The notes under the pieces: generated by a model
The model's database searches: none
What the model was told of the DNA's origin: nothing
Seen by the model: only the letters and a program-made list of their open reading frames with translations
NCBI GenBank assembly: GCA_963575645.1
Contig: OY754465.1
Coordinates: 34,483,501-34,547,500, forward strand
Direction of reading: 5' to 3'
Source of the DNA: Xanthostigma xanthostigma
Taxonomy: Eukaryota > Arthropoda > Insecta > Raphidioptera > Raphidiidae
DNA: 64,000 nt
Made by a program: the position numbers and the translations under genes
Shown: piece by piece, positions 977-40,412 of the stretch
How the letters are laid out: each line of letters opens with the position of its first letter
Numbering within the stretch: position 1 is the first letter of the stretch

Positions 977-3900
977 GTTTTGGCACTGGGATCCGAGTTT
1001 TATTTCTGGAGTACCGTTAAAAGAAATTAAAGCATTTTTTCCGAGAACAAATTATAAGATCTCAAACAGTAAGCTCCAAAAAATATTTGAAGAGGTGAAT
1101 GATCAAAAACACAGTGTTTTTTATTTTGATGATTTTTCAACTTTGTATTACAAACTTGCGTTGAATGAAAACGTAAGTTATCAATTTTTTTGTCTTCAAA
1201 ACTTTTTGTATCGTAAATTTACTTTATTGCTAATCATATCACATCGCTATACCATAGAATATAGATCAATTAACAGAAAAGTAATCAAAAATAGCATCAT
1301 TCAGTTTGAAGATTGTAGCAACTTACTTACACCATCCAAGAGAAAAATTAAATAGTCTAATAGTCTAGAACTGTAGAATCTAGAATTTAGACCAGGATAA
1401 AAATACTATGAATTCATTGTCGAGTGTCGAGTTTATAATGTGATAACTGATATGTTTAGTCCTAAAATAAATTCACTGCATTTTATTAACAGTACATTTT
1501 TTTCATCAGAATGTTCATAGTCTTTTCGATAAATACGCCATATATTCAAAAGACAAAAAAACGATTACGTTCGATGAACTTAAAACGTTCCTTTGTCAAG
1601 AACAAAATGATCCGATCGCAAGCAATGATCGTGAACTGGTGAACTTCATTTTTAAATATTTAACCAATCCACAAAGATATGTTAAAAATCCGTATTTCAC
1701 GACCGTTGAGTTTACAGATTTTTTATTTTCAAAAGAAAATGATTTATGGGATAACAGTAAAGACACCGTGTATCAAGATATGAACAGACCATTGGCCCAT
1801 TATTGGATAGCGTCTTCTCATAATACGTAAGTAAAAATATTTCGTACTCAAATCTTTATTTAACGTCTGATTACTTTTCAATAAATAAAATTATCAACCA
1901 ATCGGTCGACAATTTAATTTATTAAAAATATTTCGTGATATGACTGATATAAATAAACAAAAAAATAATATTAAAATAGCTATTAACTACTAATCAATGA
2001 TTACCCGCTTGATGAGGCCAGGGCTGCCAGATTTCTCTCCTCAGAAATCCGTCGGTAAGGCGAAAAGTGGTGGGGGAAGTGGTCTGAAAAATCCGTTTCC
2101 ATCCGTTCGCCCGGTTCACCCATTAATGCAATGAGTGTGAGAGAGATAGAGAGTAAAGTGAAGTATGCGGTACCATAAACGACACATCGACGTGTTTCCA
2201 CCTTCATTATGGCTTTATTATTAACATTATTAAATGAATTTCGTATAAGACGTTGAATTTACTTTTACTTACAGACTTTAAATTGAATAGAAATGATTCA
2301 TTTTTTCACATCCAATGAATCGATTATATCGTAGATTTTTCACATTTTTATGAAATAAAAATATTATATTGACTGTTAGAATGTTGCGATAGTAACAAAC
2401 GCGGCAGTGCAATCAGTTAAATCCTCAATGTGTTCCGTAAATCCGTGTAACTCGAAACACTTGACTCCAGTTGTGTGAAAAAAACGCATCAGACAAAGAT
2501 AGCGAGTCGATATTCATCGATATAGGTGTGTGTTTCGCGAACACATTGTTTCATACACTCTCTTATCTTTTTCTACCCAAATAGAGAGAGGAGTAGGACA
2601 GAGGTAGTGAAAGAAACGTGCTCAGATATGCTCGAATCATGGACATAGGAATATATAGGGACGGAGTATGATGCTGCGGGGGGGAAGCCACTCGGGGACG
2701 GGGACGAGGTAAAATTGGTACCAGTTTTCTATTGGCTGATGGTTCTGCGCGTGCGTAATAAGTTTGCGCATGCTCAGTACACCAAATTCCATGTCATAAA
2801 CATGTCCATGGCCATAAACCAGTGATTCCCAAAGTGGTCTATATCGATTCCCAGGGGTCAACGACAACTTGCAAGGGCTCCATGTCAGCGGGAAAGAAAA
2901 TTGGGGGTCCATGAAATTAAAATGGGGGTCAACGATAGTGAATCTCCTAACAAAAAAAGAAACAAACTGGACATCGTTAACCAAGGAGACTTGAGATTAA
3001 ACCTAACTAAATTGTTGCCAAATGTTAAAAAGTTTGGCGACCTCTGCCATAAATAAACTTCTCGAAAGGTTAGGTCCATTATCACATTGTGACAAATTTT
3101 AGTAACCTTTTTCAAACTTGATGAAACATAAACCATAATTTTTCAAAAACATATTTTAACAACTAAGTTTAGCGCAAACCGTACTCATTGTGTTTCATTC
3201 AGCACAAAAAAGATTACTGCATTCTTTCACAAGGTTAATTATAAATAATTATTATTTATCAAAAATTCATTTGGCTCCATGCATTCGATGCTAAAAATAA
3301 TATTTTCTAATATTAATTAATAAAAAATTTTAATGTTACAGTACTATAACTACATTCATCGGTGCTTTACTTTAATAAAAAATGTATTTTAATGAATGTT
3401 TACAACAAATTAAAAAAAAAAACTTCTTTTACTATTTGATGTTTACCCGCGCTGAGCGTACGCAGTGCGTCGGCCAATCAAAAGCTGGCACCCGTTACCT
3501 CGTCGCGTCCCGCAAATCGGCTTCACCCCCCTCGTCTAAAACCTCAGTTCATGCTCCGTCCCTATATATATTCCTATGTCCATGGCTCGAATGTGCTAAA
3601 AATAACCGAATGTCCCCAAATTATCGATTATCGAGTGAAGTTTGAATTTATATGTAGTAAAAAAGGTAAAAAATTCGGAAAAGTTAGAAAATCCGTTAAA
3701 TCCGTTCAGATCATGAAATCCGTTCCATTATCCGTTCAAATTTATTTCTACTCGAAAAATCCGTTTGGAACGGAAAAATCCGTTCATCTGGCAGCCCTGG
3801 ATGAGGCACGCAAAATAAAATTGTCATCTCACCTTTCTAGTGCAAAGTTAGCACAGGTCTTTCGAAGCTGCAAACTTGGATATACGCTACTGGTAGTGGT

Positions 3901-6900
3901 CCTAACAACATATTAAAAAATCAGAACTACATGTTAGTTTGCGAGATTAGCGATTTTTAGTGTAAAATATGACTGGGCTATAAGTAATTTGTAGGTTAAT
4001 CATATTTGGTTCGATATAATGTTTTCTTAATGTTAATCATTCACCAGTTATTTAACGGGTGATCAATTTTCGAGTGAATCGTCTACAGAGGCGTACGTGC
4101 GTTGTTTGCGTTGGGGTTGTCGTTGTATCGAATTAGATTGTTGGGACGGACCGGACGATACACCTAACGTTTATCATGGTCGGACGCTTACGTCAACAAT
4201 CAGTTTCTTGGACGTAATTAAAACAATTAAAGAGCACGCGTTTGATATATCAAAATATCCTGTCATATTATCACTAGAAGATAATTGTTCAATACCTCAG
4301 CAGAAGAGAATGGCTCAAATAATGCAGGTAGAGCTTTTAATTTCCGATTCATTACTCAAAAAGTAATTAAATTACATGTACACTTTATCAATAGTTATAA
4401 ATTTGTGTTTTTATTGAGTTTTTTTTACAATGTTTAAGGAGGTTTTTGGCGACATGCTATTGACTAGTCCTATAGATAAGAATGAAAAATGTCTTCCATC
4501 GCCATTACAACTCCAAAACAAAATTATATTAAAACATAAAAAACTTCCAGAAGGTCAAGATGAAAATTTAACTTTAGAGAAACACGACGATACCAAAGAA
4601 ATGGATTTACGTAATACGATAAAAAACGGTATTATGTATTTAGAAGATCCAATTCACAAAGAATGGAAACCTCATTTTTTTGTTTTAACTCACAATAAAC
4701 TTATTTATGCTGATGCACCAGAATCTTGTAATACAATTCAGACATCAAAATCTTATCAAACCATTCAGGTAATTCAAAAACCGGACCATGATGAAATTTT
4801 AAAAAACTTCACTTGAAAATGGTTCTCTTTAAATTTTTCCACATCATTACAATTCCAGCAAAGTCTTTTAAAGTGGCAATATTTTTTTGCAAAACCTAAA
4901 TAGTATTTTTTTGTGAAGATCCCTGACCCTGAGTAGCTGCCCAGACCCTTGGGTTTTCCTACCAACAGATATTGTAATCGTTATATTCTTGAATATAAAT
5001 AGAGAATCTATTAACGTTTCATTGCAGGCGGGAAAGAGAATAATTTTTCAGACAGAACTTTAATTCTAGCTTGTTGTAGGAAATATATACTGATAAAGAT
5101 GAAGAAGATGAATGTCACCTTTTTTGGCTGTGTTACGATAATTTGGAAAATAGACAGAATTTTCTTGGTAAAAAATGTCATGAGCGCGAACCATGGTATC
5201 ATCCTCATTTAACAAGAAATCAGGCTGAGGAAATACTCCAAAAAATTCATGAAAACGGCGCATTCCTTGTTAGGCTTAGTAATGGGTCAAATTCATTCTC
5301 GATTTCTTTTAGGTATGCAAGTGACATATAGATATAAATAGATTGTATAAAAATATGTGTCCGATATTTTACCCATTTAACTTTTTACATTGAAGGGCTG
5401 GAAATAAAATAAAACATCTCCTTGTACCGATGGATGGCAGATTGTTCTTTGACAGTGATATTCAATTTGAAACCCTTTACGAATTAATAGACTATTATAA
5501 AGAACATCCGTTATATAAAGACATCACACTGAATACACCCGTTAGTGAAGATATAATTTTAAAAATCAGAAAGGTAAATTAAAATTCATAAAATATGTTA
5601 AAATAACCAAATTATTGTTTTGAGCAGAAACAATTTTAGACCTCACATGATTTTAGGGTAATATCACTAATGATACCACAAATTCCCTCAATACTTCACA
5701 AAAGGTAAGTTATTATAGACGAATGATTATATTTTTAAAACTGAAATGAAAATCAGACGGGCACTATTTACACTTTATGGACTATCGACTTGATTTTTGA
5801 GCTTAGAGGGCCCGTTTAATATAAATAAACTTCATAATGTTTCATCAGATAACAGCAAAAGCAATTGTTGATTACCGAGCCGAACAAGATGATGAATTAT
5901 CTTTCTGTGTAAATGCAAAAATTACCAATGTAAATTGTGCCAGCAAAAGTTGGTGGAAAGGAGATTTCGGAGGTAGAGTGCAACACTGGTTTCCAGCACA
6001 TCATGTCAAAATTATAGAAACGGAAAATATAGATGATGATGTAAGTTTTGCAAAGTCAATTTCATCATTAGATATTTAATATTTGTATTTTTTGTGTAGC
6101 CTTCTAATGACTCCATGCTACTCGGTAGTTTACAAAAAGGTAGTATTGATATTAACGATGCTGCGGTAAGTTTGTGTATAAATAATAAACCTGGTTTGGA
6201 ATGGCTCTTGCGCATAGAAAATGGAACAATGGGTACGCCGTTTGAAGCAGCAGTGCAATCGGAATATGAAGTTAGTATAACCATTCACATTATTCTAATT
6301 TTAAAATACATTTGAAGTTTCAACATTTTTCTGGTACCTACTGTAAATGGTTGCGTAAATGGAGTACACATTTTCGCAGAGTTCCACATTTTCGGCAAAG
6401 TGTTGGCACGTTATTCCTACGAATATAGATAACCGGGTTCCAGGTTTATTGTGTTGTAAAGTTTATTTTGATTTTTGATAAGGCACTGGACTGGAAAACG
6501 TGTATTGAAGAAACGGTATCCAGCGCTACAGCAAGGGAAAGCCAAAACAGGAATATAGAAATTGCTTGGCGCGTAGCCAAAGAAATATCAGATTTAATAA
6601 TATATTGCCGTTCGGTTTCGTTTTCAATTGAAAAGGCACAGCGCGATCCACCAGTCTTCCAAGAAATGTCTTCGTTTTCAGAAACTAAAGCTGAGAAACT
6701 GATATGTCAACAAGAAAACAAACTCTTTTTGAAATACCATCGTGTGAGTTTATAAGATATGAAATTTAAAATGCAAAAAAAAATGATTTTGATTTATATG
6801 TACCGAAAATTTTCAGTCGCAATTTAGTCGAGTTTATCCAAAAGGTCAGAGACTAGATTCGTCTAATTACGATCCAACTGGTCTTTGGAATTCTGGGTGC

Positions 6901-7618
6901 CAAATGGTTGCATTAAACTATCAAACAGCAGATAAACCAATGCAATTAAACCAAGCGAAGTTTAGAGATAACGGCCGATGTGGTTATTTATTGAAGCCAG
7001 ATTTCATGTTTTCGGATGAATTTGATCCATATGATAAAAATACGTTAAAAAATGTTGAATCTCTAACTGTGTCAATAAGAGTAATCGGTGCGAGACATTT
7101 GTTTAGGAAATCAAGACGCGGCGCTGCTAATCCTTTTGTAGAAATTGAAGTCGTCGGTGCTGAGTTTGATAGGGGAGTTAAGTTGACTACAAAAACCGCA
7201 TGTATGTATAAGTACGTTTTGTCATATTTATACAATATATGTAACATACTTTATAATATTATTTTTAAAGCGGAAAACGGATTAATTCCAATTTGGAATG
7301 AAGTCTGTGAATTCGACATAGCAAATCCCTCATTTGCTTTTCTTCGATTTATTGTACAAAATGAAGATGTATTTGGAGACCCCTGTTTTCTAGGACAAGC
7401 TACGTACCCTGTTAGTATTAAAAGTGATTTTTTATAAAATATTATGTTATACAACATACATAATTTTAAAATAAGTAATTTCAACTATATTTTTTTTATA
7501 GGTAACTTGCATGCGGACTGGATACAGAAGTATCGCCCTTAAAAATGGATTTAGTGAAGATTTAGAATTAGCTTCTCTATTAGTTTATATTACAATTAAA
7601 AAACAAACAAACAAATAA
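977..7618 (+). CDS. Phospholipase C-gamma paralogue lacking the N-terminal SH2 domain (5'-partial)
   Basis: Phosphoinositide-specific phospholipase C of the gamma class, which cleaves PIP2 to IP3 and diacylglycerol at the plasma membrane. Conceptual exons: 977-1172, 1510-1826, 4048-4327, 4439-4768, 5080-5312, 5396-5573, 5657-5704, 5849-6040, 6100-6270, 6483-6743, 6817-7201, 7271-7410, 7502-7618; 948 residues in the window. Order: EF-hand region, X box (SSHNT about residue 168; [19 protein letters not shown]), first split-PH half, one SH2 (FLVR kept), SH3, second split-PH half, Y box ([19 protein letters not shown]), C2. Catalytic His, Ca2+ ligands and substrate-binding Ser/Arg are all present. 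Compared with the downstream copy, the exon at 5080 is 315 nt shorter, in frame, removing the N-terminal SH2. The exon at 5657 reads [16 protein letters not shown] and has no tyrosine. The PH domain is not seen: 1-976 is repeats. Eleven extra codons begin the first exon. Conserved splice sites and open frames argue against a pseudogene; the 5' end is unknown. Confidence 0.88.
2019..3799. mobile_element. hAT-type non-autonomous element with 8-bp target duplication
   Basis: Terminal inverted repeats CAGGGCTGCCAGAT / ATCTGGCAGCCCTG are flanked by the direct repeat GATGAGGC (2011-2018 and 3800-3807). The 8-bp duplication and CAGGG...CCCTG ends are typical of hAT transposons. It sits in the long intron between the first two X-box exons of the upstream PLCG gene. 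Inside are many ATCCGTT-type subterminal repeats (2040-2110, 3690-3790). No intact transposase ORF is visible. Confidence 0.88.
2639..3584. mobile_element. Inverted-repeat element nested in the hAT element
   Basis: The 28-nt sequence starting ATGGACATAGGAATATATAG at 2639-2666 recurs inverted at about 3554-3584, enclosing about 890 bp. It looks like a second element inserted in the hAT-type element around it. No ORF with recognisable function was found and the superfamily is unassigned. Confidence 0.65.
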
Positions 7619-8107
7619 AATAGGCATTTATTATAATTGCAATGCAAATAGTTTCACAATATGTCATATGCATAATAAATTAAAAAAATAAGAAAAACTT
7701 AACACACCCCTTAAATAGGACAGCTTGTCGAATTGTTGCAGTATGTACCCTCCATATTATGTTGTAGATTTGTTCAACGAAAACTTTTTCAATATTCTTT
7801 ACTCCTGTGACACATGAAGTTGGCTAAGCAATAGGTCAACTGAGAAAATGAAAATTGTATACCTCTTGTCAAAGACTATGTGCAAAGTACTGTAATAATG
7901 TGATAAGTTCGATTTTAATTTTATTTTATGCGTTTTGTATTATAATTTTTAATTTACTGAAAACATTTTTATTATTGAGTATTTAATACAATATATTTTA
8001 AGGTTATTTTTCTTCTTTGTACATGAAATAAAGTATACTGTTAAAAAGTTTATTACTGCGAATATTTTTACAAGCTGTTTAAGGAGACATGTATTGTTTT
8101 AGTTAAT
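7619..8107 (+). promoter_or_regulatory. Intergenic spacer between the two PLCG genes
   Basis: Only 489 bases separate the stop of the upstream PLCG copy from the ATG of the downstream copy. An AATAAA overlaps the upstream stop region (7614-7619) and another lies near 8027, either of which could serve poly(A) addition. The promoter of the downstream gene must lie here, or transcription could run through both genes. I see no clear TATA box, and the sequence is AT-rich without repeats. Confidence 0.45.
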
Positions 8108-11100
8108 ATGTTTGCCAATGGTGCAAATGGAAGCAGTCTTGTTGATGAAAATGAGCGTATCATTAGCCATTTGGAGCGGGGTACGGTTGTTACAAATTTC
8201 TTTACGAGGCGGAAACCCGAGAGAAAAACCCTCATGATACGAAGAGAAACTCGCCAGTTGATATGGACACGCTCACAGAGCTGTCAGAAAACCTCACCTG
8301 AAGGCATTGAACTGCGAGAAGTAAAAGAAGTTAGACCTGGAAAAAATTCAAAAGATTTCTGGCCAGAAGAAGCAAAAAGAATTGAAAACTCAAGATGTTT
8401 TGTTATTTTTTATGGTTCTGAATTTAAACTTAAATCACTCTCATTTGCTGGTAAGATTAACTAAGTCTGTTCTTCTATAACGCGTTTATGCTTTGCGCGA
8501 ATTTGTTCATACGCGATTATGATACGGAAGTGAAATAAATATTAACCGATGATATTATTTACAGCTCTGTCCGAAAATGAATGTGATTTGTGGATTAAAG
8601 GACTACAACATTTGGTTCCTGACACTATAAGTGCACCATATCCATTGCAGTTGGAGCGTTGGCTCAGAAGGGAATTTTACACAATGGTGAATTTGTCTAA
8701 AACGTAAGTAATTTAAACCTATTCACGTTTTCGTTACTAAACAAAGCGTACGTACAAAATTTTGTCATAAAAAAAATGATATTGGCCTGAAGTGGACAAC
8801 ATGCGACCTACGGGCTTGCCTGAATACGTTTGCTAATTGGCCCTCATTATTTTTTAAATTATGTATACCTACAATAAATGGTTGACGAGAATGTATATTA
8901 GGAAATTCAGATTTATTATTATAAAAATGCTAGCTGACATTCCCGGTTTCGTCTGAACTCTGTGTGCAAATCGCACTTTTAAGTTTTCACCCAATTCCCG
9001 TTAACCGATTGAGTTAAAATTTGTGTAGTTCCGACGACAATACAATAGTATGGTGATATTTTGTGCACACATTTTTTTGTATATGGGACAAATCGCATCA
9101 TAAGTACAATTTTTTTAAATATCTCGACCCCAACCAACCTACCGGATCAAAAAAAAAAAAGAGATAAACTTATTGTAGCACCAGACAAATGTATGGTGTG
9201 AATATGGCGTCGATGCGTCCAGTTATTTAGACGTGATGCGCTTACGTATGTGCCAGCGCTTTTATATATTAAGATGTAGTATTGTTTTTTGTCGGAATAG
9301 TGGCAAAACTTTGGGATCAAAGCAGCTTTGACAGCTTACTTCTCCGAGGTACAAAAATAATGTAAATCATCTATTATTAGATATTATTAGGTTTGAGATA
9401 ATGAATATAGGTATATACAGGGTAAGTTTTAAGTTGATTCTTTTTTTTACAGCGTGTAAAAATCAAATAGACGAGCAAATATTTCAAATAGTTTTTTTAT
9501 CAAAACTCAAAAATAAGAGAGAAACAGCCTTTCGAAGTTTAAATAAATTTTATTAAATTTTGAGGTCGGTCCTGGGGTTATATTATGTCACTATGGAAAT
9601 ATGTTAACTTATTTCCATAGTGACATAATAATAACCCCAGGACCGACCTCAAAATTAAAGAAAATTTAATAAAATTAAATATTTGCTCGTCTATTTGATA
9701 AAAGCATCAACTTAAAACTCACTCTGTATAAGAACTAAAGAATTAATAAATTAGTTTTTGTATTTTATAAAAAAAAAAATATTAAAAACCGCAAATGTAT
9801 AGAAAGTTTTTCAACATATTTACTATGTTAAATCTCATTTGTGAAAACTGAGTTACAAATGCACAATTAAAAAAAAAAAACAAACCCGTTTTGATTATTA
9901 ATATGAAAAATTTCTTTTGATTTATTTTCATAAATGCAACTTCCTCCTGAAAGTATACTCTCCACAATAATATTATACTTTAATTTTTTTGTTTTTGTTT
10001 AGGGGAGCTGCAAAAAGCGTTTCCATTGGAGGTTTCGATAGCCTAGATGACGTTCCTAAAACGTATGTATATAGTAAAAATAGAGAACAATCGATATTCG
10101 ATACCCACAATAGTTATTGATAGTCACAAACTATCGATTATTATCAGTAGTTTCGAAATTTCAAAAAATAGTACTGTCGATAGTTTTCCACCTCTAATAT
10201 GAAGCAAAAATTTAATTCAAAATCAAATGTTAAAATGTATTTTTGTTATAGCGTTACACTGAAAGAAGTAAAAGCATTTTTGCCGAGAATAAATTACAAA
10301 ATGTCGAACAGTAAACTTCAAAAACTTTTTCAAGATGTGGACGCTCAGAGACGAACTGAAATTGGATTTGACGATTTTTCAACTTTATATCATAAAATAT
10401 TATTTGATGAAAATGTAAGTGTATTCATTTATTTTTAATTTTTTTTTTTAACAGTTAGACCATCGTTGGAAACTTCTCCACCATTAAATTTTCTGTCTGT
10501 TTGTCTTTTATAGAACATTCACGATCTGTTTGACAAATACGCTACTTATTCTGAAAACAGTAAAACTGTTACTCTTCAAGAATTTCAAATGTTCCTGCTT
10601 CAAGAACAAAAAGATTCCATGGCAAACGATGAACGTGAGGTGTCTCGATTTATGTTTGATTATTTACAAGATCCGCAACGGTACGTCCAGGAGCCCTATT
10701 TCACCATGTCTGAGTTTATCGACTTTCTTTTTTCAAGACAGAATGATTTGTGGGATAGTCAAAAAGATGCAGTTTACCAGGACATGACCAAACCGCTATC
10801 AAATTATTGGATTGCTTCATCTCATAATACGTGAGTTATCTAATATAATGTAACATTTTTACAGCTGATGTATTTTGAACGTTATTAACATAAAATACAC
10901 TAGACCAACTACAATAAAACCTGCACCAACATGTTCCTTGAAAACTCAGGAGAGGCCTCGGGGCAACAAAGGAGTGGAGGCCCCCTGGCCCTAAATTATT
11001 TTCCAAAAAAATAGACAATTTTTTCCACTCTAGTTTTCCAATAAATAATTTATTGTGAAACCAAGTATAGATTCTTTTATTATTTAACACATATAAATAT

Positions 11101-14100
11101 AATCGAAAACAAGAATTGTCTAAAATTAAATTTTAGCGTTAACGAATCGAACTTTCTGAGCTTTTTTCGTCGAAAAATATCAAAGGAAAAGTTGTTTACT
11201 AGTCTATTGTGGAGGCCCCGGGGCTGCAGCCTCGGTTGCCCATCCCTAAATCCGGCCCTGCAGGAGCTCTATGGAGTATACGTTGTGAGAGGACTGAGCT
11301 ATACATCAAAGCCATAAAAATGTCTGTAACGCGTGACGCGCTATCCTGTGCTCTTGCGTGGAGGCCTGGCAATTGACATGAGGTGTACGGGCTACATCTG
11401 GTTTTAAATAAAGTAAAAAGTCAGCTAGCAATTTCCAAACCCTTCTAATACAGGCAGCGAACCTAGGATAAAATAAAAAATTTAATCCCTTAATGAATTC
11501 CTTAAAATACATTAATAAAGTTTATGTTAAAGCGCGAAACGCTGCAGGTAATGGCTAGTCTAATATATATATTTAAAAAGTACTCGTAAGCTTAGGTGGC
11601 GGTCGATCCTAAATTTCATCATCAGTGGTCGAGTGGTTCGTAATTTGATGTCGGTACAGGCAAACAAAAATACTTTTCTGGTCTAGAATACAAAATACCC
11701 AAAAAATCTGCCAATAAAAACTGAAATGCAAGCAGACGTCCCATAACTATTTTATATGTTTGTATTGATGCTATAAATAGACCGTCATTTGTTAGATACT
11801 TGACGGGCGATCAGTTCTCGAGTGAATCGTCTACAGAAGCTTATGTTCGTTGTCTACGAATGGGCTGTCGATGTATCGAACTGGATTGTTGGGACGGACC
11901 GGACGGTATGCCTTTTATATTCCACGGTCACACGCTAACGTCGAAAATAAAATTTTTGGACGTAATTAAAACAATCAAAGAAAATGCATTTTTCACATCG
12001 AAATTTCCAGTTATATTATCGATCGAGGATAATTGTTCACTGCCACAGCAAAGAAAAATGGCCCAGGCTATGCAGGTAAATGAACTTGTTTAATTTTAAA
12101 TTTATAATGTTTTTGCTTGAATGTAAATCCAATTGAATCAGTCCATTTTTCAAGCGCTCCAAAAGGCGTCATTTATTAGTCACATTTAAAATAAATTTCA
12201 TAAGTTATGTCATTACCGCCCACGTGACAATATAGCATTAGGCTACTCAGTTTAGAATGAAAAAAATTAAATGCAGAAAAATTAAATTTTACACGTGAAT
12301 CAAAATCGATTTTTATAGAACTGTAGTTGTACAAAACTTATGGTATTTACGTCAAATGTGGCAAATAAATGACACTGAAAAAGTCCAAATAGAGGACGAA
12401 ATGTGGACGATTAAAAAATAAGTCGTTTTGATAAACTGATCAACTTCACAATAACTAAAGGCCGCTGCACACGAGACTAGAAACGCTGCTAGATTCCTTG
12501 CTAGATTTGCCTACTAGTTTTCTAGCGTTGGTTTTCTTGTTTCTCGATTACTGTAAAGTGCTCACTTCACACGAGACTATTTTTCAAGCTTGTTTTGTGG
12601 ATAGATCTGATGCGCGCGTAGTGACAGTTCGAATATAAACACAGAGCAAAACGTGTCTGTTGTCTGACTCTGAGCAGAATGACGCCGTGTTGGTTTGTGG
12701 GCATTTGTTCAAGTGCTCACGTGACAAGATACTGCTTCCTAATTGGTTCTTGCTCATATCTAGCAGGGAAAATAGCCCCTGTTCTAATTTTAAAACCTAT
12801 CTTCTTGTGAGCTAGCAGGCCAGCCCGCAGTGACGTCATTTCTAGCTTCGTACCCAGTCTAGCGGCTAGCAGAACTAGCAGCGTTTCTAGCCTTGTGTGC
12901 AGCGGTCTTAATACCCGATAATGGACAAGAACCGTCTTAAGATAACAAAATATCTAGTAGGTACAGTTCCTATCAGCACCTAAATCGCGCAGACGAGCTG
13001 CGCAGGTTGTATTACATTACAAAGCGATATATTTAACTATGGTCACAATATGTTATTATCAATGTCTTTGGAATATTCAAAATGTTGCACTTTATTCCGA
13101 GTTGCAACCATAAATGCAATTTTATGCTTGTTTAAAAAATCAGACAAATCTTCAAACATTATTTTATTTTTTTGTAGGAAATGTTTGGAGATATGCTATT
13201 AGTACAAGCTGTGGATAAGAATGAGAAATGTCTTCCATCACCTCAACAACTTCAACGAAAAATAATATTGAAACATAAGAAACTTCCTGAAGGCCAAGAT
13301 GAAACTTCTCTTTGGGCCAGACATGATGATCCTAGAGACATGGATTTACGTAACACTGTAAAAAATGGGATAATGTATTTAGAAGATCCGGTCGACAAAG
13401 AATGGAATCCGTTTTTCTTTGTCCTGACTCAAAATAAATTAACTTACACTACCGTATCAGATTCGTATCGTAATAATCAGGTAAGATTGAGGAGAAGTTA
13501 ATAGTGCGTTTAACGTTCTGTGAGTGTTTTGCGAAGGGTCAAGACTTTTCGAAAACACAGTAATAAATAGCGAGGTTCTAGACAAGCGCGTCAGACTAAC
13601 TCTTGGGAACCAAATATTTGATGACCCTGAAATATAACAGATTCGTCACAAATGGCGGGAGCGATTTCTCATGAAGGCCTAAGACTAGGTTGAGATGTCG
13701 GGAATGTACAATGGGCTCTTCCAGACCTGAGTGCAGCGGGAATTTTTTCTCGCCCGCAATTTCTTCTATTCTGTCTCTCTATACTGATGAATCCTGCGAG
13801 AGTTTATTTTATAATTTTTAATGTATAATGGTGGTGTGAAAATGTTTTCGTTGTAGGAATCGGACAGAGAAGACGATGAAGAAGAGTTCAGCTTTCCGAG
13901 ATTGCGTGACGACGTTCCAAATGACGAACTTCATTATAGTGAAAAATGGTTCCACGGTCGATTAATAGGCGGTCGAAACGAAGCTGAAGATCTACTTAAG
14001 GCGTACTCAAACTTGGGAGACGGTACTTTTCTCGTACGTGAAAGTGTTACGTTTGTGGGAGATTATTGTCTATCATTTTGGAGGCAAGGAAAAGTTAATC

Positions 14101-17100
14101 ATTGTCGAATAAAACACAAACAGGAAAAAGGACAGACAAAATTCTATCTGATCGAAGCAAACTGTTTCGACAGTTTATACAGTTTAATAACGCATTATAG
14201 ACAGCATCCGTTGCGTAGCCACGAGTTCGTAATAACTTTGCAAGAACCTGTTCCTCAACCGAATAAACACGAAGAGGAACCGTGGTATCATCCTCAGGTA
14301 TCGAGGATGCAGGCTGAAAAGATGTTAGGAAGAGTGCCCACAAACGGTGCTTTTCTTGTAAGACCGAGCGAAAGGGATTCAAATACATACGCCATTTCTT
14401 TCAGGTATGGAATATTCATACTTGATATGCAAAGACAGTGTTTGTCCACAAACTGTTTTCGAATATTTTTCTAATTTATTCATTATCCATATTTGATACG
14501 AGATCAGCAATACGTCCTTAACTAAATACATTCTGCTTGCATTCGGATACCGAAATTTTTCGACTGTATTCGAATATTTTATCCGATCTTGTATCCGTTG
14601 TCCATATTTGATACAAAAATCAACATTGTATCCGTATTAAAATACATTTAGCCTGCATTCGGTTACCGAAAATTTCTGGATATATTGACTTTATTTGAAT
14701 ATTTTTCTGATGTTGTATCTATTATCCATTTCTGATATGAAATCAGCAATGTATCCATATACAAAACAATTAGCCTGTATTTGGATACTGGAAGTATCCA
14801 AGTAATATATCTAGATATATCAACTGTATTTTTACCTAATGTAAAATTCGTTCTCGCACGATGTGAATAACAGTTACAAATATACTTTAAACATGAGAAA
14901 GATTGATTGTTTGAAAGTGTCCCTGCAGAATAAATGTTAACTTAGCCGCCGCAATACTTGGAGATTCGGGCATTTTTTCAAAATAAATTTTTCTTATATA
15001 ACATTATATCAACGGATATGTCTTAACAATAACGATAGCAAACTTTTGCTAAATATAATTGAAAATTAAAATAATTATAATTATTTACTTAGGGCTGATA
15101 ATAGAATAAAACATTGTCGTATTCGTGTCGATGGGAGATTATACACAATCGGTACCGTCCAGTTTGAAAGTCTTGTCGAACTCGTCAATTACTACAAAGA
15201 GTATGCATTGTATCGGAAAGTGAAACTAAGCTACCCAATAAGTGAAGACATTATTAGAAATATTTCACAGGCAAGTTTTCTTTTACAGACATATTTCAGT
15301 TCGGTTTTTAAATTGATCCCTGAAGTAATGAGAACAAACTTTTCATTTTAGGACGTAGAAGGAACTGTGTACGGGACTCCTGGTTATATGGACCCATCGA
15401 GTTTTTCGACAAGAGTAAGTTTGTTTTGTTTTTAATGTTTCGTGCAACACGGAACACTTATGGAATCACTTCGGTGTTCGTTCGTCCGTCTGTCTCAGCC
15501 GATTTTTTATAACAAATAAATAGTAAAGTCTATAAACTTAAATTGAATAAAGTCCATACAGAGATTTACCAAATACCGCAATGAATTGTACCCATATGTT
15601 AAAGACAGATAACAATGAAACCACTCCAGTATGGCTGACTGTCAGAAAATGATATTTTGAAGTCTTACATGTTCCCAGTAACATTTATTTTAGGTTGCAG
15701 TTCAAAAAATAGCAACAATTACATTTACACAATTTTAAATGTGTATAATTTGAATAATTTAAGTATTTTGAACATGAAAATGTTTATCTGTCATTGATAT
15801 TTACTTTTGAACTTGTTGCCTCAAAATGGTGGACGCTCCTTTGTCAATTTAAAGACTTGAATGCAAGCGACCACCACGTTTTTTGCCAGTTCTGATTCAC
15901 AGCTTTATAATGTGACACGGTTGTGTCGATAGTATAATTCACGATCGTTATAGAAATTCGCTGACAAACATCAGTGAAGACAGTCGAGTAATTTCAATGT
16001 TTGTTCCTTTAAGTTGTGGAATCAATAAAGAAACGAATGCTTATAGAGATATCCGTGTCACTTGTTTTTAATGAATTCCAGATAACTGTGAAGGCATTGT
16101 ATGACTATCGAGCGCAAGGATCTGATGAATTGTCTTTTTGCAAACACGCTGTCATCACAAATGTGAAATGTGTCAGCACTGGATGGTGGCAGGGTGATTA
16201 TGGCGGAAAACGACAAAATTGGTTTCCAGCAAATTATGTAGAAGAAATTGAACCTCAAGAGAACAATGATGAAAACGTACGTCCGTTTTTTAAAGACATT
16301 TTTATTAATGCTATCTAATCTAATAGTGCTAACACACGGTCGAACTTGGTCCGGTCCGACAACGGACATGGTACGGCGGATCTTGCAACAGACGACCGAA
16401 TCTGTTCCCATCGAACCGGGTGGACACGCAGACTACTGTACAGACGAACAGATTTGGTACAGAGCGGACCAGATCCGTTGTCCGCTTCGAACCAAGTTCG
16501 ACCGTCTGTTAGTACTATTACGTTAACGAGGATATATTTCTTTGCTATTATCACGCTAATAACATCATTGAGGTAGTTGTGGCGCCACGCTCAGGGACGT
16601 ATTTACGACATGGCGAAAAGGGTATTCACCCGAATAGGCAAAAATGAGAGGCCGACACAGCCGCACCGTTGACCGGCTGCCACCACTGAGCGGCGTGATA
16701 ATGGTATGCCATTTTAAGGTCGCTTCACTCAGACAGCAAACTTTATACTTGTCAAAATCGTCTTCATTCCATCCTTGATACTGTATCTGCTAATTCCATT
16801 TTTTTTTTACTTCTTATTTTTGGTGGTTAATAATCAGAAACAATGTATGTGCAAATCGTCTTTACCCAGGGCGTAAATTTTATAAAATTAGTCCTCCCCC
16901 ACAGCATTTACTGTAATATATGGATATTTGCGAATGCGACGAGAATTTTTGATTTCCGTTTGTGATTTCATTGACAGATTGATGTCAGCCTAATAACAAT
17001 GGAAAAATATTTTTACGTTTATCGAAAATCTAAATGTTTTCTTCAAATAAATAAAATTGTCGACCAATTTTTCTCAGACCGTATATTGACAAAAAATAAT

Positions 17101-20100
17101 AAAAATACAAATCAATATAACAAAAGATGACGTTTCGATCCGGATTTGTATCTTCTTCAGAAATATCTAAAAAATATAAAAATTAATTAGTATTAATACT
17201 AATTAATTTTTATATTTTTTAGATATTATATATAAATATAAAAATTAATTAGTATTAATACTAATTAATTTTTATATTTTTTAGATATTTCTGAAGAAGA
17301 TCCAAATCCGGATCGAAACGTCATCTTTTGTTATATTGATTTGTATTTTTATTATTTTTTGTCAATATATGGTCTGAGAAAAATTGGTTGACAATTTTAT
17401 TTATTTGAAGAGTTCTATTCAGACGTTAATCAAAGATCTAAATGTTTTCTCTTATTTATTTTTATAAACTTATTATAGCGAAACTCGACTGATTCATTGT
17501 TACTCGGAAATCTTACGAAAGGCAGTGTCGATATAAATGGCGCAATCGTTAGTTTGTGCGTCAACAGTAGACCCGGCTTAGAATGGTTGTTGCGCATTGA
17601 AAATGGAGCCATGTGTACACCATTCGAAGCTGCGTTGCCGACAGAACATGAGGTTGGTGTTTTTTTTTTTATCAGTAAATCTTTTGCTGTTTCCTTCGAC
17701 CGTTTAACTATAGACAAACTAAGCTAACTTCACACTTATTGACAAGACCTCCAGGGTTATATGATGTTCCGCTAGCGGCCGAGCTAAGAACTAAAACCTT
17801 TAAATATGTTGATACGGGAACGGCATGTAGACAGCGGTTGGTAATTATTGTCCATTCTTAAATTTTTAAACGTCAAGTTATTGACATTTTTGATGCAAAT
17901 TTTAAGATCACTAAATACCGACTTACAACGTTACAACCCACATAAATTTTAAAGAAAATCTGATTTTCAAAAAATCCTCAATTACTAAACAGTAGCCAAA
18001 ATAACCAGACCTGGCTTCTCACACTGAAAAAACAGACTATAGGTATTACTTCTTTACTGGTATAAGTTATTTGAATTTCCCGCTTTTCTGAAACGTATTA
18101 ATTTTATGCAAATCTACTAGAAAGGAAAACCAATAAATTTCGAGCCGAACTCGCGTGTTTTTTCATTGAATGTATGGAACCCTAAAAAAGGTTTTATTGT
18201 TTGTATGTTTCTTTCTCTGTTTAAAAGCCACTTCTTTCCGGCTTATATTTTATTCTGCTACAGCGAAAAGGGGATCAGCAGTGAGCAAAATTGTAAACCA
18301 AAATCTGTTCAGGCGAAGCCAGGCCGAAAAGCTAAGTAAATGATAAAGTGACTTCATTTTTTTTAACAGGCTATAGACTGGAAATGTCACATTGACGATA
18401 CGGCGTTAAAAGCGAATGCAAGAGAAACTCAACACAAAGAAATGGAACGTGCGTGGCGTATAGCGAAAGAAATATCAGACTTAATTGTTTACTGTAGATC
18501 TGTTGCATTTAATATTGAAAGAGCGCAACGTGATCCACCTGTCTTCCAAGAAATGTCTTCGTTTTCGGAAACTAAAGCTGAAAAAATTATATGCCAACAA
18601 GAAAACAAATTCTTTTTAAAATATCACAGGGTAAGAATTTGATATTATTTTTTGGTAACCACTGTTGAACTAAAGGCAGTAATGGCCGAACGAGTAACTA
18701 TTGGTTAAATAAACCATAAACAAATTTCTTTAACCAATAGTTACCCATTCGGCAGGCCCTGCTCCAGGGCAGTTCTCGATTCCGAAAACGCTATAAGATT
18801 GTGAGACAGTCACGTTGTATTTTTTTTTTTTTTTGACGTGGGCTGCTCTTGTGTTTTATTATTTTTTTTAATGGAATTTTATATTTATAATTCTAAAAAA
18901 TACCGTGTAAGTAAATAATTACGAAAATTTCATTCTGTTTCACAATCTGGCTGTCTTCAAAATCTTAAAATGCCAGTAGCCATGTTTTATTGGCTATGTG
19001 CAAGGAGGCGGAGAGAGACAGAGTGAGAGTACTAGGGGAAACTTCAAACTCAAATTTACCGTCAGTCAGTGAGCACTGTTTAATAAAAGTGAAAATAGTT
19101 ATGATTTTATAAAGTTTTTTAATTACAAAGAAAACATGGGCAAAACTAGGCGATCTGGAAATGTTTTTTGTGTCGGGGCTGTTGTGCTGATGGCGATTTA
19201 AGTGAAATAAAGATTATTGGCGCCATAACTTGACGTTACGCTGTCAGTAAGTTTGTTCCAAGCAGCCAGCAAACGGTAATGATGCCGTCACCCACGTGCG
19301 CAGTAGCTAAAACGTTCCAAAATCACCACAAACAGCTTCGTTTTAGCTACTGCGCACGCTGGTGACGGTTTCGTTACCGTTTGCTGGCTGCTTGGAACAA
19401 ACTTATAGTGTAAACAAATTAATTATTTATATATTGTAAGCCATAATCGAAAGCCAAAAAATACCCAAAATAAATAATTCTCACGTACCTTTTATGTTGT
19501 GCTATTTATATTGTTAGGCCAAGCTGTAGAGCATTTTTGCATGACATAAAGACTAGTAGCAAACCGATTGTGCGATGATATAAAAGATAATAATCAGATG
19601 AATAGGCATATGTTTTTCACTCGAGTTTCCGGTCCATTAGTTAGTTATCAACAGTTTATTGCAAAAAAAACGCAATTTTTGTCTTTTTTTGCTTGTAACT
19701 TTGAAACTAATGGAGCAATCGGAATGACCCAATGAAATGGTTTGTAGAGAATGTAAATATCTACAGAATGAGAGGTCGAATGTCTTAAATTTATAGCTCC
19801 GTCATTTTTTGAGCTGGAGCGCTAAACTTTTGAGAGAAATTAGGGATTATAATGTTCTTTATATGTGCCAAAGGTGGGTGCTGTCGGATTACTAATTTTC
19901 GCGAAATCGCGATTGAAAGTTTGCTGTGCGCTTTTTTCCGGCAGGCCTGTATGCGTTACCGTAAGTCCGATAATAATTTCAAAAAAAGTTTTGAAAAGTT
20001 GACATCATGCACTACAAAACGTAGATTTCAGTTTTTCGATCAGATGCCTGGAAGCATGCTAAAAACACTCGTAAAGTTCGCGAAAAACGGCCGAGCGCGT

Positions 20101-23100
20101 GCTCGCAGTCGAGTGGTGGTGGAAGGAGCAGCGGCGGAGAAGCGTATATATAGTAATAGCGCGCGCGGCGCGCACGTTATTTATATTCCCCCACCACTCG
20201 ACTGAGAGGGTGCGTTTCGGCCGTTTTTCACGAACTTTACGAGTGTTTTTAGCATGCTTCCAGACATCTGATCGAAAAACTTATTTAATTAGATGCTTAT
20301 AACGACACTGTACTTCTCCCATAATAAAATAATTGACATGATCTTCGATGCTACAAAATAATGTCATTCACAATTGTAGAGTAGCGTAGATAACCAAAGT
20401 GGACGAAAAATGCACCCTGTATTACATGTTATAAATTTGTTAAAATCTGTAGGTGAAAAAATATATGATTACTAGCGGACCCGGCGAACTTCGTACCGCC
20501 TAACAGTATAATATATATATATAGCGGCCCTGTACGTGCTTCGCTACGTATAAAGTGAAATAATAAAACAATTTAATTGGAACATCTATCTATCTATTTT
20601 ATTTATTTTAAAATATACATGGACGTATATGTGCGTATGTCGAGCACTCCGGCTGCGCCGTCGTGCCCGGTGCAAAAGAACGAATGGTGAAGGAAGAAAA
20701 AAAATTTAGGGGTGGACTACCCCTAACATTTAGGGGGATGAAAAATAGATGTTGGCGAAGTGACACCTGTAGACATCTGGCGGGGATAACTAATTAAATG
20801 ACGATTGATCAGTTTTCGACCGGAGAGGAAAAATGATTAAATTACTAAAATGGCTATTAAAAAATAAGGGTTGATCGTAGAAGGGTGAAAATTGAGGATT
20901 GTATGTATTTTTGTATGTTGTATCATAAAAAAATAGAAATTAAAAATTTTGTCTAAAAAATAAAAAAAAATTTAGGGGTGGACTACCCCTAACATTTAGG
21001 GGGATGAAAAATAGATGTTGGCGAAGTGACACCTGTAGACATCTGGCGGGGATAACTAATTAAATGACGATTGATCAGTTTTCGACCGGAGAGGAAAAAT
21101 GATTAAATTACTAAAATGGCTATTAAACAATAAGGGTTGATCATAGAAGGGTGAAAATTGAGGATTGTATGTATTTTTGTATGTTGTATCATAAAAAAAT
21201 AGAAATTAAAAATTTTGTCTAAAAAATAAAAAAAAAAATTTAGGGGTGGACTACCCCTAACATTTAGGGGGATGAAAAATAGATGTTGGTCGATTCTCAT
21301 AGATACCGGATAAGCACAAAAAATTTCATCAAAATCGGTCAAGCCGTTTCGGAGGAGTATGGCAACAAAAACTGTGACACGAGAATTTTATATATTAGAT
21401 TTAACGGCCAATTGACAGTTGAAATTCATTTTTCAAAAAAGATTTTTCAGAGATGATAATTTTTTTAGTATCTATAGGCTGTGTGCACGAAGCCTACTAG
21501 CGCCGTTAGTGGGTAATAGAGAATTATTGAACTCACTTTTTATGAAAATCGCGACATGTTTTTATGATGATAAGAAAAAAACGTTAGTTGGCTATGACGT
21601 AACAAAAAAAATGTAATGAGGAAAATTGATGTTAATTTGTTTACACTGACAGCGGAACGTCAAATTAGGGCGCCAATAGTCTTTATTTTACTTAAATCGT
21701 CATCAGCACAACAGCCCGGAACACAGCAAGCATTTCCAAATCGCTTAGTTTTCCCATGTTTTCTTTGTAATTAAAAAACTTCATAAAATTATAACTATTT
21801 TCGCTTTTAATAAATATTGCTCATTGACATACGGAAAATTTGAGTTTGAAGTTTCTCCTAGTGCTCACCACAAACGCTCGCATCGAAAAATTTGTAACTC
21901 CGCCTCCTTGCACATAGCCCATAGACACGATTTTTTTTTTAAATTCGTATCCATGGTTTTAAAATATAAACAGCCTTATGTATGATTTGAAAAAATTCTG
22001 TCAAAAATTAAAAAAACATTGATTTATAAACCATTGTGCGAGTCATTAGGATCAGTTTTTCTGACAATTATATTGACAAAAATATATAATTATAATTCAA
22101 TAAATTTATTGAATTATAATTATATATTGTCAATATAATTGTTAGAAAAATTGGTCGATAATTTATTTATTGAAGAGTACTAATCAGACGTTAATCAAAG
22201 ATTCAAATATCTAAATGTTTATTACTAGTCATTATACACGTCATTGCACACGTTAGTAGAAATTTTATTTTATTTTTATTGACAAAATATGTCAGTAATT
22301 TTAAAGTTGAAAAGATCTTTGATGAATAATAAATTGTCTTAAATTATTAAAATGAATTCGTTTCCATGATTTTGTTTAAAATGTGAAACAGACTAAAAAA
22401 ACCTTACCACAACTACCTACTTATTTGGTTTTTTACATTTATTTTAGAAATTTATTTGTGCCGTTGTTTATGTGGCGTTTCTATGGTTTGAAGCAAACTA
22501 GGAATTGTCGTCACGGAAAACTGTAAATTATCACATTCGTCAAAAATAAAAAAAAAAACACACATTGGTGGTTTTTAGGATTCCGTACCCGAAGGGTGCT
22601 CAATGGGACCCTATTACTAAGCCTCCGCTGTCCGTCCGTCTGTCTGTCAGCGGGCTGTATCTCAAGAACCGTAAGGGTAGAGAGTTGAAATTTTCACAGA
22701 GTGTGTATTTCTATTGCCGCTAGAACAGGAAATAATTAAAAACCCCCCCAAAACTCCCAAAAGAGGAGCAAACTAAGTTTTTTGCTCTTAATTCGCTGAC
22801 TAGCGGCATAGAAGGCTTCGTACACACACCCTATACGTCTATGAGCAGTGTATCTTTTGCGATATCATAGAGTAACAACCGCGGTTAATAATTTCAATTA
22901 TTGAAACATTTCAGTCACAATTTAGCAGAGTGTATCCGAAAGGCCAAAGAATTGATTCCTCAAATTATAATCCGATCTCGTTGTGGAATTCTGGTTGTCA
23001 GATGGTAGCACTGAATTACCAAACACCAGATAGACATATGCAGCTTAATCAAGCCAAGTTTAGAGACAACGGGCGATGCGGTTATTTACTTAAACCGGAG

Positions 23101-24151
23101 TTTATGTCCAGAGATGAATTTGATCCGTACGATAAAAATACGTTGGTAGGAGTGGAACCATTAACTATCGCAATTAGAGTGATTGGTGCGCGACATCTGT
23201 GTAAAAAATCTGGTAGAGGAACGGCAAGCCCTTTTGTAGAAGTTGAAGTTATCGGTGCGGAGTTTGATAGCAGTGTCAAATTAACTACTCGAACTGTATG
23301 TAAGTAAACGACAATGCGCAGTTTTGAAATGTATAACACGGGAAGGCAAATCAAGCTGTAACAGGTCTGTGAGCGACATTCATCTATCTCTTTCCATGGC
23401 TTAGGTATTAAATGCACACTTGCAAACTTTCCCAAAGTACCTCGAAACTTACCGAAATTTAAGTGACGCATCTTAATTAACAACTATCTGTGTCTCTTGA
23501 TTACTCAGAACTTGAACGCGCGTGTGTGAATTTTTCGAAGTATCTCGAAACTTGACGAAAATCAAATGACACGCCTTAACAAACAACTGTCTGTCTCTCT
23601 CAATTACTTAAGTCTGGAATACGCGCGCGTAAACTGACTCGAACGCATGCGCATGTAGGATGAGCAACTTTATGTCTGTTCTTTTCTCACACATGCTGTT
23701 TACATTTTTGGCCAAAGGCATTTCGTCTTCCAGTTATATATGTTTCATTTTGCTCGAACATTCCATATAGAATAAATAAACGTTTGGCAACACTAAAATT
23801 AACTATGATTTGTTTTATTTTGAAGCCGACAACGGGTTGAATCCTGTTTGGAATGACATCTGCGAATTCGACATAGCAAACCCGGCGTTTGCGCTTCTCC
23901 GATTTGTTGTACAGGACGAGGACATGTTCGGCGAACCGAACTTTCTAGGCCAGGCAACTTATCCGGTAATACTTATTGCTGTTGTTTTTTAAAAATCATT
24001 TACCGAAACTATAAATAATTTTTTTTTAAAGGTTACCTGTATACGAACAGGATATCGAAGTGTGGCACTGAAAAATTCATATAGTGAAGATTTAGAATTG
24101 GCCTCGCTGTTAATACATATTAGTGTTGGAAATCCTATGGTGAATACATAA
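8108..24151 (+). CDS. PLCG: Phospholipase C-gamma, complete gene
   Basis: Full receptor-coupled PLC-gamma (Drosophila small wing family), acting downstream of receptor tyrosine kinases. Sixteen conceptual exons: 8108-8450, 8565-8703, 10003-10062, 10252-10414, 10514-10830, 11796-12075, 13178-13480, 13857-14404, 15093-15270, 15352-15414, 16082-16276, 17479-17652, 18370-18630, 22915-23299, 23826-23965, 24032-24151; together 1222 residues, phase-consistent. Domains by approximate residue: PH 20-150, EF hands 180-320, X box 325-480 ([29 protein letters not shown]), split-PH half 495-530, acidic linker, N-SH2 566-665 and C-SH2 678-775 (both FLVR), two-tyrosine linker exon ([10 protein letters not shown], about 780-795), SH3 800-860, second split-PH half, Y box about 950-1070, C2 about 1085-1210. 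The start ATG at 8108 is the first in an open exon matching the family's PH region. The intron after 15270 uses a GC donor. The introns are loaded with repeats. The length fits the family (about 1200-1290). Confidence 0.95.
9414..9730. repeat. Fold-back element, copy 2 (complete)
   Basis: The ends are TATACAGGGTAAGTTTTAAG and the inverse at 9705-9730 (CTTAAAACTCACTCTGTATA). Near-perfect inverted arms carry the GAGGTCGGTCCTGGGGTTAT block and meet near 9605. It is the same family as 1-360 and lies in the second intron of the downstream PLCG gene. The remaining parts of that intron (8704-9413, 9731-10002) are AT-rich without a recognised gene. Confidence 0.85.
10870..11260. repeat. Probable DNA-transposon remnant
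   Basis: The stretch ends with CCCTAAATCCGGCCCTG and contains GC-rich blocks (GGAGGCCCC near 10975 and 11210) in otherwise AT-rich intron. The end resembles CAGGGCCGGATTTAGGG termini of non-autonomous DNA elements. I could not find the matching left end, so the limits are approximate. Confidence 0.4.
12374..12412 (+). ncRNA. Degenerate hammerhead-like remnant
   Basis: ACTGAAAAAGTCC, a short loop, then GGACGAAATGTGGAC resembles the Penelope-associated hammerhead-like motifs seen elsewhere in this window. The CUGANGA core has A in place of the invariant G, so activity is not expected. It marks an old Penelope-like end in this intron. Confidence 0.35.
12458..12909. mobile_element. Inverted-repeat MITE in PLCG intron
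   Basis: The left end GGCCGCTGCACACGAGACTA is matched by the inverted right end (CTAGCCTTGTGTGCAGCGGTC at 12887-12907). The interior repeats CTAGC/GCTAG motifs many times. There is no ORF. The family is not assigned. Confidence 0.75.
16321..16520. mobile_element. 200-bp MITE with 30-bp terminal inverted repeats
   Basis: TAATAGTGCTAACACACGGT... at 16321-16350 pairs with ...CCGTCTGTTAGTACTATTA at 16491-16520 with few mismatches. The interior is GC-richer than the intron around it and itself contains imperfect inverted repeats (GGTCCGGTCCGACAACGGAC / CGGACCAGATCCGTTGTCCG). It begins 44 bases after the SH3 exon of the downstream PLCG gene. Confidence 0.85.
17126..17160 (-). ncRNA. Hammerhead-ribozyme-like motif, - strand
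   Basis: Read on the - strand: CTGAAGA, an extra A, GATAC, loop, GGATC, then GAAACGTC. The CUGANGA and GAAA core boxes and a short helix II are present, with one mismatch in the helix. An extra A separates core and helix compared with the strict consensus. Stem III is too short for a monomer, so it would need a dimer. Confidence 0.45.
17291..17325 (+). ncRNA. Hammerhead-ribozyme-like motif, + strand
   Basis: CTGAAGA, extra A, GATCC, loop AAATCC, GGATC, GAAACGTC. Both conserved core boxes and a perfect 5-bp helix II are present. Hammerheads with very short stem III are known in terminal repeats of Penelope-like elements, which fits the setting. Cleavage is not shown. Confidence 0.55.
19248..19405. 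repeat. Nested fold-back insertion
   Basis: TAAGTTTGTTCCAAGCAGCC at the left is matched by GGCTGCTTGGAACAAACTTA at the right, with arms of about 65 bp and a spacer of about 25 bp. It interrupts the left arm of the larger inverted repeat: the right arm of that repeat reads straight through the equivalent site, so this piece was inserted later. Confidence 0.75.
20031..20280. repeat. GC-rich palindrome
   Basis: The arms pair TTTTTCGATCAGATGCCTGG at the left with the inverse ending at 20280. Inner arms include AACGGCCGAG and CGAGTGGTGG against CCACCACTCG. The loop near 20150-20190 is rich in GCGCGC. It overlaps no recognised coding sequence. Confidence 0.7.
20471..21402. mobile_element. Dispersed retroelement-like segment with internal tandem repeats
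   Basis: It starts ACTAGCGGACCCGGCGAACT and ends near AATTTTATATATTAGAT, preceded by AAAATCGGTCAAGCCGTTTC. These two ends resemble a non-autonomous repeat common in insect genomes, though I cannot name the family with certainty. A unit of about 266 bp inside is tandemly repeated (20697-21290). There is no ORF of note. Confidence 0.55.
20697..21290. repeat. Tandem repeat, about 266-bp unit, 2.2 copies
   Basis: Units start at about 20697, 20963 and 21229, each with TTTAGGGGTGGACTACCCCT followed by GATGAAAAATAGATGTTGG. Units 1 and 2 differ at only a few bases, so the duplication is recent. The unit begins with a short hairpin (AGGGGTGGACTACCCCT). Confidence 0.85.
22065..22200. repeat. Degenerate Penelope-like palindrome
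   Basis: ATATTGACAAAAATATATAA and its inverse surround a perfect short palindrome (AATTCAATAAATTTATTGAATT), followed by the family's right end (GAAGAGTACTAATCAGACG). The hammerhead-like region has been lost. Confidence 0.6.
22570..22860. repeat. Dispersed repeat (GGTTCCGTACC-type)
   Basis: ATTCCGTACCCGAAGGGTGC, then CCGCTGTCCGTCCGTCTGTC and CTGTATCTCAAGAACCGT, resembles a dispersed repeat seen in many insect genomes. It ends shortly before the Y-box exon at 22915. The exact family was not determined. Confidence 0.5.
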
Positions 24152-40046: not shown

Positions 40047-40412
40047 TTTATACGATTAATTGCTTAGTTAATAAATTTAAGGTTAACAAAAATTCGCTTC
40101 TTAAATTCGTATCTGTCAATTATAGTTCCTATTTTTTCTTTAAGTTGGCAATGATACAAAAAAAACATCAGCTCGAAGTCAACAAAGAGTGAGCAGGACA
40201 TAATAAACAATGCAAGTAATAAAAAGAGAGGTAATTATTTTAGCCGCTGTGTTCTGACGTATTTAAACAAATTCCCCAGGAATTATTCATTTTAAATGGC
40301 TGTACCACAGTGAAACCGTTGAAAGTTTCTCAAGAAGAAATATTTGTTTTTATATATTCTTTTTATTTATAGTACGTGATATATATATATATATTTATTT
40401 GTGTTGTCTAAA
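40047..40412. promoter_or_regulatory. Probable bidirectional promoter
   Basis: 366 bases lie between two divergent ATGs (TMEM186-like on -, Aurora kinase on +). It contains a (TA)n run at 40379-40394 just upstream of the Aurora ATG and no repeat element, in contrast to the regions on either side. I did not identify specific factor sites. Confidence 0.55.

Follow-up and report, generated by a model that had tools for sequence, protein, structure and literature searches.

In textbooks, PLC-gamma is what connects receptor tyrosine kinases to calcium signalling, and tandem SH2 domains and the activating tyrosine Tyr783 have been taken as inseparable from the family. In published models of its control, the N-SH2 domain docks on the receptor and primes the enzyme; phosphorylated Tyr783 then binds the cSH2 and detaches it from the C2 domain, and the regulatory array leaves the barrel, while the linker loop is dispensable for autoinhibition (PMC7004563; PMC9203054). 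One of these sources also mentions binding of Rac2 to the split PH domain (PMC9203054). Human PLCG1 and PLCG2 are tabulated with two SH2 domains in a review (PMC9783222), and Drosophila is described as having three PLC genes, of which sl corresponds to both human PLC-gamma genes (PMC12387771). No PLC-gamma with a single SH2 domain is described among the matches listed from titles and abstract openings of the open-access literature. We describe here a tandem pair of PLC-gamma genes in Xanthostigma xanthostigma, the upstream member of which (copy 1) lacks the N-SH2. Our reading of its sequence, to which we give a probability of roughly 0.55, is that copy 1 arose by an ancient tandem duplication of PLC-gamma, is still functional and is no longer coupled to tyrosine kinases.

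Both genes lie on the forward (+) strand of contig C2 of a 623-Mb genome in 28 contigs; positions below refer to the window, that is, the whole stretch of 64,000 nucleotides analysed, unless another reference is given. Spliced, copy 1 encodes 1104 aa in 15 coding exons with no internal stop, and its coding introns are GT-AG in 14 of 14 cases. Thirteen of the 15 coding exons are in the window (977..7618, +), and exons 1 and 2, which supply the ATG and the PH domain, precede it (L009 3361-3688 and 4077-4215, window -6639 to -5785). The preliminary description of the locus had missed this gene start, as it had the loss of linker tyrosines and the divergence of the SH3 groove discussed below. Of all the joins, that at the acceptor of exon 3 (977) is the least certain; we chose this acceptor for its phase and pyrimidine tract, and it gives about 11 residues more than in copy 2. 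From there on, the + strand exons carry EF-hand 2 and the start of the X box with its catalytic His (H335 counterpart; 1510..1826), the X box with the counterparts of E365, D367, H380 and E414 (4048..4327), the X-box end (K462/K464 counterparts) with the first half of the split PH (4439..4768), the two parts of the C-SH2 (5080..5312 and 5396..5573), the cSH2-SH3 linker (5657..5704), the SH3 (5849..6040), the second half of the split PH (first exon 6100..6270), its end with the start of the Y box (6483..6743), the remaining Y box with the start of the C2 domain (6817..7201) and, in the final two exons (7271-7410 and 7502-7618), the rest of the C2 domain with the stop codon. Copy 2 (8108..24151, +) is a canonical PLC-gamma with two SH2 domains, encoding 1222 aa in 16 coding exons, and its ATG follows the copy 1 stop after a gap of 489 bp (7619-8107). 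It has one GC donor, after exon 15093-15270, and an extra exon of 60 nt at 10003-10062; at the introns shared by the two copies the splice phases agree. By eye, each ATG stands close behind an AG resembling a splice acceptor, and a good donor (AACAG/GTAAGT) is seen 62 nt upstream of the copy 1 ATG, delimiting a putative 5'UTR intron of 62 nt (L009:3299-3360); the two copies might share a non-coding leader exon or be joined in read-through transcripts.

The surroundings of the pair contain several further elements. The copy 1 intron 1827-4047 harbours a repeat (about 2026-3805) with a near-copy in the upstream intron (L009 about 4788-5607), and its copy in the window carries a further insert of about 950 bp at about 2637-3590, whose ends look inverted; both were judged by eye. 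Two near-perfect fold-back repeats are present at 1-244 (arms 97 nt, 96%) and 474-836 (arms 177 nt, 99%). Neighbouring coding sequences are a 440-aa single-exon protein kinase frame at 40380-41702 (Pkinase 3e-74), which we take to be Aurora-like, and exons at 45885-48623 that match the nibrin BRCT II domain. Elsewhere in the genome, contig C28 (17.7 kb) includes a complete COX1 and probably represents the mitochondrial genome, and partial COX1 matches with stops at C6:1195571-1196020 and C2:16906869-16907126 resemble nuclear copies.

The preliminary description held that copy 1 had lost its whole N-SH2 by an exact in-frame deletion, with the C-SH2 left in place. The exon concerned (5080-5312) measures 233 nt, and its homologue in copy 2 (13857-14404, +), which holds the entire N-SH2 and the first part of the C-SH2, measures 548 nt, a difference of 315 nt or 105 codons. 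Both exons begin in phase 0 and end in phase 2 and are flanked by an AG acceptor and a GT donor. In copy 1 there is a single match to Pfam SH2 (PF00017), at residues 569-642, compared to two stretches in copy 2, and the C-SH2 of copy 1, split over 5080-5312 and 5396-5573, retains the FLVR arginine. Frame, phases, splice sites and Pfam concur, which rules out chance or a misread exon. The loss and its in-frame nature are thereby borne out, whereas a single exact event is not: the ends of the breakpoint are ambiguous in the DNA alignment of the two exons, and residual residues are left. Ahead of its C-SH2, copy 1 still has about 36 residues, of which 26 show a weak alignment to two scraps of the copy 2 N-SH2 (shuffle P 0.019, or 0.031 minus the last five residues, in a test designed post hoc after viewing the alignment); the same 26 show no similarity to the rat N-SH2 (shuffle P 0.33 and 0.65). 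The sequence fits stepwise erosion of the N-SH2 as well as a clean cut.

The two copies are close neighbours on the same strand, 489 bp apart, an arrangement that would favour an artefact in which the N-SH2 dropped out during assembly, comes from an unseen exon, or reaches copy 1 transcripts from copy 2 through read-through or splicing. We consider such an artefact very improbable. A permissive tblastn search with the 140-aa N-SH2 region of copy 2 against 38.1 kb that starts 30 kb before the window and runs as far as base 8100, up to copy 2, gave no N-SH2 among the matches listed, and below E 0.5 these comprised only the C-SH2 of copy 1 itself; an N-SH2 elsewhere in or near the gene was rejected on this search. 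The genome-wide exon-by-exon SH2 scan gave at least 40 matches, of which copy 1 has one and copy 2 has two; neither a third PLC-gamma locus nor a further PLC-gamma SH2 appears among the matches listed in the genome scans (PI-PLC-X, SH2 and whole proteins). These scans also gave PLC-like matches, not further classed, at about 67.15 Mb on C1, 55.68 Mb on C2 and 28.16 Mb on C10. Since protein identity to copy 2 is only 66%, copy 1 is not a haplotig. The linker tyrosines, lost independently in another exon, likewise argue against an artefact.

The linker between cSH2 and SH3 in copy 1 (residues 652-686) contains no tyrosine, compared to three in copy 2, one of which aligns with rat Tyr775 and another with Tyr783. 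The linker exon has 48 nt in copy 1 and 63 nt in copy 2 (15352..15414, +), where it carries tyrosines 784 and 789, the latter aligned with rat Tyr783; the third copy 2 tyrosine is found just ahead of it, in exon 15093-15270. This loss concerns an exon other than that of the N-SH2 loss and is independent of it. The SH3 of copy 1 has AIVDY in place of ALYDY and, in the second motif, HH in place of NY, positions that we take to line the peptide groove, and the predicted groove has diverged. Because the published models need both N-SH2 docking and phosphorylated Tyr783, and copy 1 has lost both, the changes in linker and SH3 strengthen the case for an altered recruitment or activation.

Of the positions bearing on phosphotyrosine binding, the C-SH2 of copy 1 retains the counterparts of R675, R694 and H714; R696 corresponds to Ser in both copies, and only copy 1 has Leu at R716. 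The loop by Y747 has R748 replaced by K, K749 by D and K751 by T. As this is the loop that clasps the C2 domain, the lock of copy 1 may be loose, and with the latch changed in this way a constitutively active PLC, unlocked and with its output set by expression level, becomes the main rival to an uncoupled but still controlled enzyme. Besides the loop changes and R716L in the phosphotyrosine pocket, it draws on the strong activation of rat PLC-gamma1 reported upon removal or mutation of the cSH2 (PMC7004563). However, copy 1 retains the residues corresponding to Y747, D1019 and D1165, R748K is conservative, and the split PH that caps the barrel has not accelerated, copy 1 and copy 2 showing no difference in unique changes in its first half (1 v 3) or its second half (6 v 3). 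A permanently unlocked copy 1 is unlikely in our view.

The catalytic core speaks for an enzyme in use. All eight mapped X-box residues (8/8) that we assume to be catalytic are retained, as are the Y-box motifs SSFSE and FSRVYPKG. The X box has 12 changes seen in copy 1 only, among them H382R, K387T and K389S near the second catalytic His. Catalytic death through H to R in the YHGHT motif was considered and rejected, as the change affects the counterpart of H382 and H380 is kept. The X-box changes nevertheless count against our reading, and hydrolysis of PIP2 by copy 1 is a prediction. Both copies have Pfam matches to X, Y, C2, SH3, PH and EF-hand domains, and in copy 1 those to X, Y, PH, C2, EF_HAND_1_PLCG and EF_HAND_2_PLCG are above the curated cut-offs. 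The regulatory insert between X and Y in copy 1 comprises, by Pfam, the SH2 (569-642) and the SH3 (687-733), and a split PH that is absent from the Pfam list and was recognised by alignment, its halves covering 50 and 87 aligned sites with 48% and 21% identity to rat.

Across 1090 aligned codons the two copies have identical residues at 718 (66%), and their differences fall on the three codon positions as 261, 200 and 550. In a pairwise codon model dN is 0.23, dS is 3.9 and saturated, and omega is 0.059, a value that is indicative because of the saturation; omega = 1 is rejected with a likelihood-ratio statistic of 688. With domain boundaries set by hand, here as in the rate counts below, segment fits gave omega from 0.006 to 0.107 in seven of eight cases, and the eighth (C2) ran to the boundary. 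If non-synonymous change is split 116:43 and dS equally, an arithmetic estimate of omega for the copy 1 branch is about 0.09. When neutral drift of the copy 1 coding sequence was simulated (200 replicates per level), the share of replicates that stayed free of stops fell from 31% at 0.01 substitutions per site to 4.5% at 0.02 and to zero at 0.05. The pairwise omega and the drift simulation together argue that purifying selection has acted on copy 1 over nearly the whole of a long period, and an old pseudogene is rejected on omega, saturated dS and the simulation; a loss of function would go unnoticed here only if it were very recent.

Rates differ between the copies and between their domains. 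Counted over 1043 gap-free columns, with rat PLC-gamma1 as the sole and distant outgroup, 116 changes are unique to copy 1 and 43 to copy 2 (P 6e-9). No difference is seen, copy 1 v copy 2, in X (12 v 9), Y (2 v 5), C-SH2 (16 v 9) and linker (2 v 2). Copy 1 is faster in SH3 (12 v 0, P 0.0005; 13 v 1 in a wider range, rat 791-856), EF (18 v 3, P 0.0015), PH (16 v 4, P 0.012) and C2 (15 v 4, P 0.019), where the ten per-domain P values are uncorrected and only SH3 and EF survive Bonferroni correction. X and Y combined have 14 v 14 changes (Fisher P 0.0045 against the rest). Thus, the catalytic barrel and the capping split PH held while the SH3 drifted. PH, EF and C2 drifted as well, although they do not face kinases, which counts against a purely kinase-directed story. 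The faster change of copy 1 overall, including these domains, would also be expected of a decaying duplicate whose regulatory half drifts and which is becoming, or has very recently become, a pseudogene, and a gene that lost its function within the last 0.01-0.02 substitutions per site or so could still be free of stops (P 0.31 at 0.01, 0.045 at 0.02). Against such decay stand the saturated dS with an omega of 0.059, 1104 codons free of stops, and X and Y boxes as constrained as those of copy 2, and we regard it as distinctly unlikely.

For a functional paralogue uncoupled from tyrosine kinases, the altered recruitment or activation proposed in the preliminary description is the natural reading, given an absent N-SH2, a kept C-SH2 with catalytic residues and purifying selection. 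As the receptor-docking module and the tyrosine switch are both lost, copy 1 is probably controlled in some other way. It would neither dock on a phosphorylated receptor via an N-SH2 nor be opened by a switch of the phospho-Tyr783 type. The lid formed by C-SH2 and split PH would still cover the core, at least partly, since Y747, D1019 and D1165 all have conserved counterparts in copy 1. Its output might be a low basal activity, raised by recruitment through the membrane or Ca2+; a small GTPase acting on the split PH, or a C-SH2 ligand supplied in trans, could serve as alternative activator. More tentatively, and with somewhat less than even odds, copy 1 could stand for a conserved PLC-gamma-derived class, at least in this insect lineage, that shed its kinase interface (N-SH2, Tyr783 switch and SH3 groove) after duplication, with the core fully constrained, the lid kept and a different key. 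If such a copy has been maintained for long in nature without N-SH2 and Tyr783, the autoinhibited core would prove open to rewiring, and the copy would help to separate, in a natural experiment, the parts of the regulatory array that lock the enzyme from those that only open it.

Identity to copy 2 (67%) and to rat PLC-gamma1 (44%) over 1043 columns, shared splice phases and the best PDB matches point to descent of copy 1 from PLC-gamma. Among canonical features it has PI-PLC X and Y with catalytic residues, PH, EF hands, C2 and the regulatory insert with split PH, SH2 and SH3; it has one SH2 in place of the tandem found in copy 2 and lacks the activating linker tyrosine (Tyr783 in PLC-gamma1). 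Because these two defining features fail, copy 1 is, judged by its predicted protein, a PLC-gamma derivative and not a canonical PLC-gamma. Searches for homologues in prokaryotes and viruses (genome_contigs and viral_contigs) gave 214 and 160 pattern matches with none confirmed, which says little on animals, and Rfam gave no match at the gathering score. PLC-delta provides PLC activity without a receptor-docking SH2, and PLC-delta1 (1qas) shares the catalytic core with copy 1; copy 1 differs from it by the gamma-type X-Y insert and scores 372 bits against it, compared to 913 bits for its best PDB match, a PLC-gamma1 chain. With PLC-gamma1 and PLC-gamma2 (6pbc, 7t8t, 8t7c, 8jqg) copy 1 has in common the catalytic residues and the order PH, EF, X, split PH, C-SH2, SH3, split PH, Y, C2, and differs in being without N-SH2 and linker tyrosine and in its changed SH3 groove; over the 1043 columns, copy 2 is closer to rat PLC-gamma1 (51%) than copy 1 (44%). 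Copy 2, presumed to be the counterpart of Drosophila small wing (sl), resembles copy 1 as its tandem neighbour, with equal splice phases at shared introns and 66% identity over 1090 codons, but has two SH2 domains, three linker tyrosines, an extra 60-nt exon and a slower rate of change.
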